64,000 bases of DNA, from NCBI RefSeq assembly GCF_900104665.1, contig NZ_LT629969.1, positions 434,001 through 498,000 on the forward strand, written 5' to 3'. Made by a program: the position numbers and the translations under genes. Below, piece by piece: positions 51,319 to 51,606 of the stretch; within the stretch, counting starts at the first letter, position 1, and the number at the start of each line of letters is the position of its first letter. The stretch comes from Traorella massiliensis. Lineage in GTDB: Bacteria > Bacillota_I > Bacilli_A > Erysipelotrichales > Erysipelotrichaceae. Under the pieces are notes generated by a model. It saw nothing but the letters and a program-made list of their open reading frames with translations, did not search any database and was not told where the DNA came from.

Positions 51319-51347
51319 TTGTCATTTCTTTCGTTTTGTGATAAATT
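51319..51347 (+). promoter_or_regulatory. Promoter of repeat-leader cassette 2
   Basis: TTGTCA (51319-51324), 17 nt, TAAATT (51342-51347), matching cassette 1 (5962-5990) in spacing and -10. Confidence 0.55.
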
Positions 51348-51384
51348 AAAATCATAGAAAAATGCAGAAAGGAGCTTGACAAGG

Positions 51385-51510
51385 ATGGTAGAAATTGCGA
51401 CAATTCTAAGCAAGCAAGCAAGCAAGCAAGCAAGCAAGCAAGCAAGCAAGCAAGCAAGCAAGCAAGCAAGCAAGCAAGCAAGCAAGCAAGCAAGCAAGCA
51501 AGCAAGTTAG
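51385..51510 (+). CDS. Leader ORF 2 with SKQA-repeat peptide, spans the AAGC tract
   Basis: AAAGGAG (51368-51374) lies 10 nt before ATG 51385, as in leader 1. The 41-residue peptide (head VEIATIL, then SKQA repeats) stops at TAG 51508-51510, one base after the repeat and 38 nt before the hairpin, so locus 2 appears to be in the early-stop state. With one more AAGC unit the frame would continue AAG TTA GCT through the hairpin to TAA 51603-51605, one base before the structural ATG. With two more, it would stop at TAG 51563-51565, inside the hairpin. Confidence 0.55.
   Translation: MVEIATILSKQASKQASKQASKQASKQASKQASKQASKQAS
51408..51506 (+). repeat. (AAGC)24.75 tetranucleotide tract, locus 2
   Basis: A pure 99-nt tetranucleotide array inside leader ORF 2, exactly 8 units longer than the tract of locus 1. 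Flanking GCGACAATTC is conserved in both loci. Confidence 0.97.
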
Positions 51511-51547
51511 CTTATTTTTTCACAAGTCAAACTCTAAAAAGATACAA

Positions 51548-51583
51548 GCGTATTTTGTCCATTAGGATAAGTGCGCTTTTTTT
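51548..51583 (+). terminator. Leader hairpin 2: intrinsic terminator/attenuator
   Basis: Bases 51548-51560 pair with 51565-51576 in 12 pairs (one bulged T, ATTA loop), followed directly by seven T residues (51577-51583). This is an intrinsic terminator between the leader and the surface-protein ATG at 51607. Confidence 0.75.
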
Positions 51584-51606
51584 CTGTATTTTGGAAAGGA
51601 GCTAAA

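Follow-up and report, generated by a model that had tools for sequence, protein, structure and literature searches.

A candidate phase-variable attenuator with an AAGC-repeat leader upstream of a surface-protein gene in Traorella massiliensis

Leader, repeat tract and terminator at locus 2

Here we describe a repeat-bearing leader, locus 2, in a window of 64,000 nucleotides from the genome of Traorella massiliensis; the window is the whole stretch of DNA that was analysed, and all of the features described in it below lie on its forward strand. The locus precedes a gene at 51607..53439 whose 610 aa product was recognised as a surface protein from its translation and from Pfam PF07581; it carries a signal peptide, a GLUG motif, and a C-terminal TSDHS motif, hydrophobic stretch and basic tail. 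Near its C-terminal end the coding sequence contains approximately two diverged 192-nt repeats (52861-53289), and the protein encoded behind a related leader in a sister species (L079) contains similar sequence.

Upstream of this gene, a consensus scan identified the putative promoter P1 (51319..51347), which consists of TTGTCA-17 nt-TAAATT with TGTGA before the -10 box. It is followed by a leader ribosome binding site, AAAGGAG (51368..51374, by direct reading), and by a leader ORF that in its present frame occupies 51385..51510 and encodes 41 aa, MVEIATILSKQA(SKQA)n. The leader ATG is enclosed within a conserved, promoter-like TTGACA-N17-GACAAT block (51376..51404), and most of the ORF consists of a 100% perfect AAGC tract of 24.75 units, that is 24 full units plus AAG (51408..51506). 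Beyond the tract lies a terminator hairpin, H2 (51546-51578), with a U-run of seven T (51577-51583), both recognised by folding, covariation and covariance-model matches, and then the ribosome binding site of the structural gene, GGAAAGGAG (51593..51601, by direct reading). An earlier note on this DNA had placed a promoter, ribosome binding site, leader ATG, 24.75 AAGC units and a terminator in this order before ATG 51607, and all of its coordinates are correct. Only 23 nt, including the Shine-Dalgarno (SD) sequence, separate the U-run from the gene ATG, and the mRNA therefore has to cross the terminator.

The number of repeat units determines where the leader ends. Read from ATG 51385, a leader with 24 units ends at TAG 51508-51510 after 41 aa, approximately 35 nt before the hairpin; one with 25 units ends at TAA 51603-51605 after 74 aa, 24 nt past the stem and one base 5′ of ATG 51607; and one with 26 units ends after 62 aa at TAG 51563-51565, in the hairpin loop. 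Recomputation of the frames thus returned exactly the stops that had been claimed for 24 units and for one or two units more. The leader stop precedes ATG 51607 in all three frames and the tract lies outside the structural coding frame, which rules out a contingency locus of the in-gene type.

When compared with shuffled sequences, the hairpin folded much more favourably, with z-scores of -4.3 at locus 2 and of -3.8 and -5.4 at two further loci of the same genome (loci 1 and 3, below). In an alignment of five loci the ten-pair stem was 98% paired, with changes on both sides in 6/10 pairs. A larger alignment of 20 distinct sequences was also 98% paired and contained 18 both-side changes, compared with 3.8 in shuffles, although it leans towards the stem because it was fitted to a covariance model, which the five-locus alignment was not. 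A covariance model of the hairpin alone recovered further leaders of like build, with matches under about 35 bits being mostly ordinary terminators. The locus 2 hairpin itself contains a bulge and G-U pairs, and it was missed by a simple terminator scan, probably because of the bulge in its stem. An Rfam search of the leader gave no match above the gathering score, returning only tRNAs and one sub-threshold match. These alignments identify the terminator as a conserved RNA element with a covarying stem. We do not claim a second terminator in H1, a hairpin directly after the tract that we considered for this role, because most of its energies are weak.

Related leaders in the genome and in other Bacillota

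Exactly three AAGC tracts of at least 5 units occur in the 2.6 Mb genome (nine contigs), and they share the same strand of contig C9. A reversed control pattern had 0 matches, indicating that the tract is not a product of chance. Locus 1, which lies in the same window, has a leader ORF (6030..6212) whose present frame stops 12 nt past the hairpin and is predicted ON, a tract of 17 units (6052..6119), an H2 homologue (6160..6207) and a gene (6261..7997) for a 578 aa surface protein with a Big_2 Ig-like domain and a C-terminal anchor-like tail. Locus 3 has a tract of ∼27 units (G000:C9:397931-398038). Before the tract, the three loci have in common the sequence GAAAGG-G-nTTGACA-N17-GACAATT, with the leader ATG within N17. 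At locus 3 an IS element encoding a 483-aa transposase on the minus strand (L036:1152-2895; G000:C9, about 398.2-399.9 kb) separates the hairpin from a 1358-aa surface gene with MucBP and Ig-like domains, directly before which there is a second hairpin with a T-run. A fourth locus of the genome holds a repeat-free module (C9:385651-385703; L084) before a surface-protein gene.

Beyond these loci, AAGC tracts were also seen within coding sequences, in each case at the 5′ end: one in an acyltransferase-like gene (L040, minus strand, with the tract near 2390), the other in a phosphoethanolamine-transferase-like gene (L045, near 468). Both genes are out of frame as sequenced, and in both TTGACA lies 16-17 nt before GACAAT. 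From their sequences, both are of the in-gene phase variation type. L045, from a MAG labelled Accumulibacter, had been a candidate module; its TTGACA spacing matches but its start codon does not, and we have taken it as an in-gene repeat.

The covariance model identified a repeat-free leader, L079, before a surface-protein gene in the sister species (G002). The first distant relatives were found in Ruminococcaceae and uncultured Clostridia, while the relatives of the window itself belong to a different class, and order-level (375 genomes) and class-level (371 genomes) scans around one distant relative yielded further true modules in G900, G689, G667, G855, G924, G791, G634, G498 and G1095, as well as a module with its leader deleted in G1330. 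The upstream promoter-like site, SD, start codon and TTGACA-N17 block align in most of the relatives, with a -10-like box at the position matching P1 and a purine-rich SD at an equal distance to the leader start. These features bear on the possibility that TTGACA-N17-GACAAT is itself the working promoter, such that transcripts would start in the tract, the leader would go untranslated and the repeat would be a variable 5′ UTR. The block does have a perfect -35, 17-nt spacing and a TG before the -10, and it is conserved in most relatives as GACAAT, GATAAT, CACAAT or GAAAAT. However, a start codon sits at a fixed SD distance inside the block in nearly all relatives, most have the promoter-like site upstream, and the repeat-free leaders are open up to the hairpin, and we therefore regard this reading as highly improbable.

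Most targets are surface proteins that carry signal peptides, with homology among those behind locus 2, L079, the fourth locus, L113 and L125. Three modules (L114, L117 and L118) are followed by a TetR-family regulator gene and no surface protein. Across 1.58 kb, module and surface gene of the fourth locus (L087, minus strand, near 5653-5703) share 92% identity with L113 of G900, a genome of a different class from that of the window. This match is likely to reflect recent lateral transfer, and one copy of the module seems to have moved between classes. Locus 1 has a partner in another genus (G145) that is 91% identical and has a decayed tract; lateral transfer is the likeliest reading of this similarity, the alternative being contamination of the G145 bin, which is possible because the match stops at a contig end.

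Searches for the element elsewhere were less productive. A strict AAGC-module pattern matched no genome of the same family and phylum besides the present one, and the TTGACA block without AAGC was near background in an order-level set of distant genomes (9 genomes matched, compared with ∼8 control matches). Plasmid and phage collections contained no copy of the repeat-free module, and viral contigs contained only an unrelated repeat. We found no paper on AAGC leaders of the present kind in a literature search that covered few subscription journals. The element family, defined by its covarying terminator, upstream promoter, leader start and TTGACA-N17 block, thus appears to be undescribed. We give about even chances to a broader proposal, in which the AAGC attenuator belongs to a Bacillota regulatory cassette that is undescribed and moves horizontally. 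Such a cassette, sitting in at least two classes before different surface-protein and TetR-family genes, would be a leader-peptide attenuator that is read through by default in its repeat-free form, and expansion of a four-base repeat in the leader would have made it a random ON/OFF switch.

Reading frames and the proposed switch

We consider locus 2 most likely to be a phase-variable attenuator, in which slipped-strand variation of the leader ORF controls premature termination. Transcription would begin at P1, and a ribosome would load at the leader SD and ATG 51385 and then read the AAGC tract. Replication slippage would alter the number of units, and this number mod 3 would fix the leader stop. 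With the present 24 units, translation would stop after the tract, the hairpin would form and most transcripts would end near 51583, leaving the gene OFF. A ribosome reading either of the other two frames would enter or cross the hairpin and block its folding, allowing transcription to continue into the surface-protein gene (ON). From the sequence we infer that slippage occurs in the population, that transcripts terminate in vivo, that read-through depends on the ribosome, and which frames are OFF and ON. RNA polymerase of B. subtilis can run ahead of the ribosomes, which would weaken an attenuation effect.

The pattern of frames across loci is consistent with this mechanism. In 11/12 tract-bearing loci exactly one frame ends no more than 12 nt after the tract (0/2000 shuffles), and in 8 the remaining two frames also reach the hairpin (P 0.0005), P values that are only a guide because the loci have common ancestry; over the first five loci alone the pattern was not significant. 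The stop of all five distinct repeat-free leaders (L079, L084/L113, L122, L126 and L134) falls within the hairpin, past it or 7 nt short of it. Since one frame stops after the tract and the other two mostly reach the hairpin, the comparison suggests that one frame is OFF and two are ON, and it points to attenuation more than to coupling at the start codon. The three translation outcomes proposed earlier for tract length mod 3 stand as three leader stops and probably reduce to a single OFF state and two ON states, as was measured in Streptococcus gallolyticus (PMC3894217). The predicted present state is OFF at locus 2, L044, L116 and L125, and ON at locus 1, L054, L114, L117, L118 and L124, and it is ambiguous at L128 and the IS-interrupted locus 3.

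The earlier note had offered attenuation and translational coupling side by side, and of these it is attenuation that the comparison better supports. Under coupling, ribosomes that finish the 25-unit leader beside the gene ATG would restart on the gene, and the hairpin would be minor or would serve to hide the gene ribosome binding site. The position of TAA 51603-51605, one base from ATG 51607, fits such an arrangement, and in the predicted fold of the leader part of the U-run pairs with the leader SD. This adjacency is not shared by the relatives, however: the two long frames of locus 1 end 13 and 45 nt upstream of its gene, and the leaders of L079 and L084 end well upstream of theirs. With adjacency confined to locus 2, reaching the hairpin is the feature that the loci have in common. 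The structural gene also has a strong SD of its own, and the hairpin is conserved and T-tailed, leaving coupling an unlikely explanation.

Tract length might alternatively act through RNA structure or distance, with the repeats pairing with GCTTG beside the leader SD and so blocking it. GCTTG 51374-51378 is predicted to pair with CAAGC of the tract with a probability of about 0.77, and many relatives (e.g. L117, L125 and L134) have TGTCAAG after the tract, complementary to CTTGACA; an SD-blocking fold is possible on this modelling. Against an effect of length, the predicted pairing of the SD and of the hairpin is identical for 3 to 30 units, so that length would be irrelevant beyond a few units. 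The constancy of the predicted hairpin probability across unit numbers likewise favours the reading frame over an RNA-length effect, which we judge very unlikely.

Unit number does vary among related genomes, from 0 to 27 at homologous leaders, with one genome per species compared. This range, together with the covarying terminator and the repeat-free leaders that reach the hairpin, supports the earlier proposal of a stochastic switch governed by tract length mod 3, in which the switching itself is inferred. Tracts have decayed or been lost in some relatives (L094 and L129) and an IS element parts locus 3 from its gene, as might be expected if the repeat were a decaying remnant without any regulatory function today. 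Such a relic is scarcely credible, however, given that this genome keeps long perfect tracts at three loci and other genomes have them too, that the position of the tract within the leader is constant, and that an early stop in one frame recurs.

If the attenuation mechanism is correct, a conserved element in two classes of Bacillota would represent a general route to surface-protein variation, and ON and OFF states would be predictable from sequence by unit number mod 3. The repeat-free relatives are the likely starting state, which makes the origin of a phase-variable switch directly testable. To our knowledge, repeat-driven attenuation has been worked out in detail in one species only.

Comparison with known systems

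Phase-variable leader attenuation as a principle is already known, because it has been demonstrated for Pil1 and Pil3 of S. gallolyticus (Danne 2014, PMC3894217). In that system expression is low with 22 GCAGA units, when the leader ends 39-49 bp before the terminator, and high with 21 or 23 units, when it ends beside or in the hairpin; removal of the leader start lowers expression, deletion of the terminator raises it, and chloramphenicol abolishes the gain (PMC3894217). Locus 2 has the same succession of promoter, SD, leader ORF with a non-triplet repeat, intrinsic terminator and surface-protein gene, and a similar geometry, with the OFF stop 39-49 bp before the hairpin there and ∼35 nt before it here, and the other stops at, in or past the hairpin. 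Locus 1 is built in the same way. The systems differ in the repeat unit (GCAGA as opposed to AAGC), in their targets (a pilus operon there, non-pilus genes here) and in number, there being two Pil loci per genome and three repeat loci here. The present leader also belongs to a family with a common hairpin and TTGACA-N17 block that extends over two classes and includes repeat-free members.

Ribosome-mediated attenuators of the trp operon type are alike in that formation of a terminator depends on the translation of a leader peptide, but here the variable would be the length of the leader, set by DNA repeats, and in the locus 2 leader we identified neither a run of regulatory codons nor an alternative antiterminator hairpin. 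In the contingency loci of Haemophilus and Neisseria, four-base repeat slippage likewise shifts the reading frame at random, with the tract lying within the gene, as in the AAGC repeats of autB (PMC5118866). The tract described here lies instead in a separate leader ORF before a terminator, and it is therefore transcription, and not the structural frame, that would change. On sequence evidence, locus 2 is thus a real and well-supported candidate phase-variable attenuator, operating on a known principle and belonging to an apparently undescribed family.
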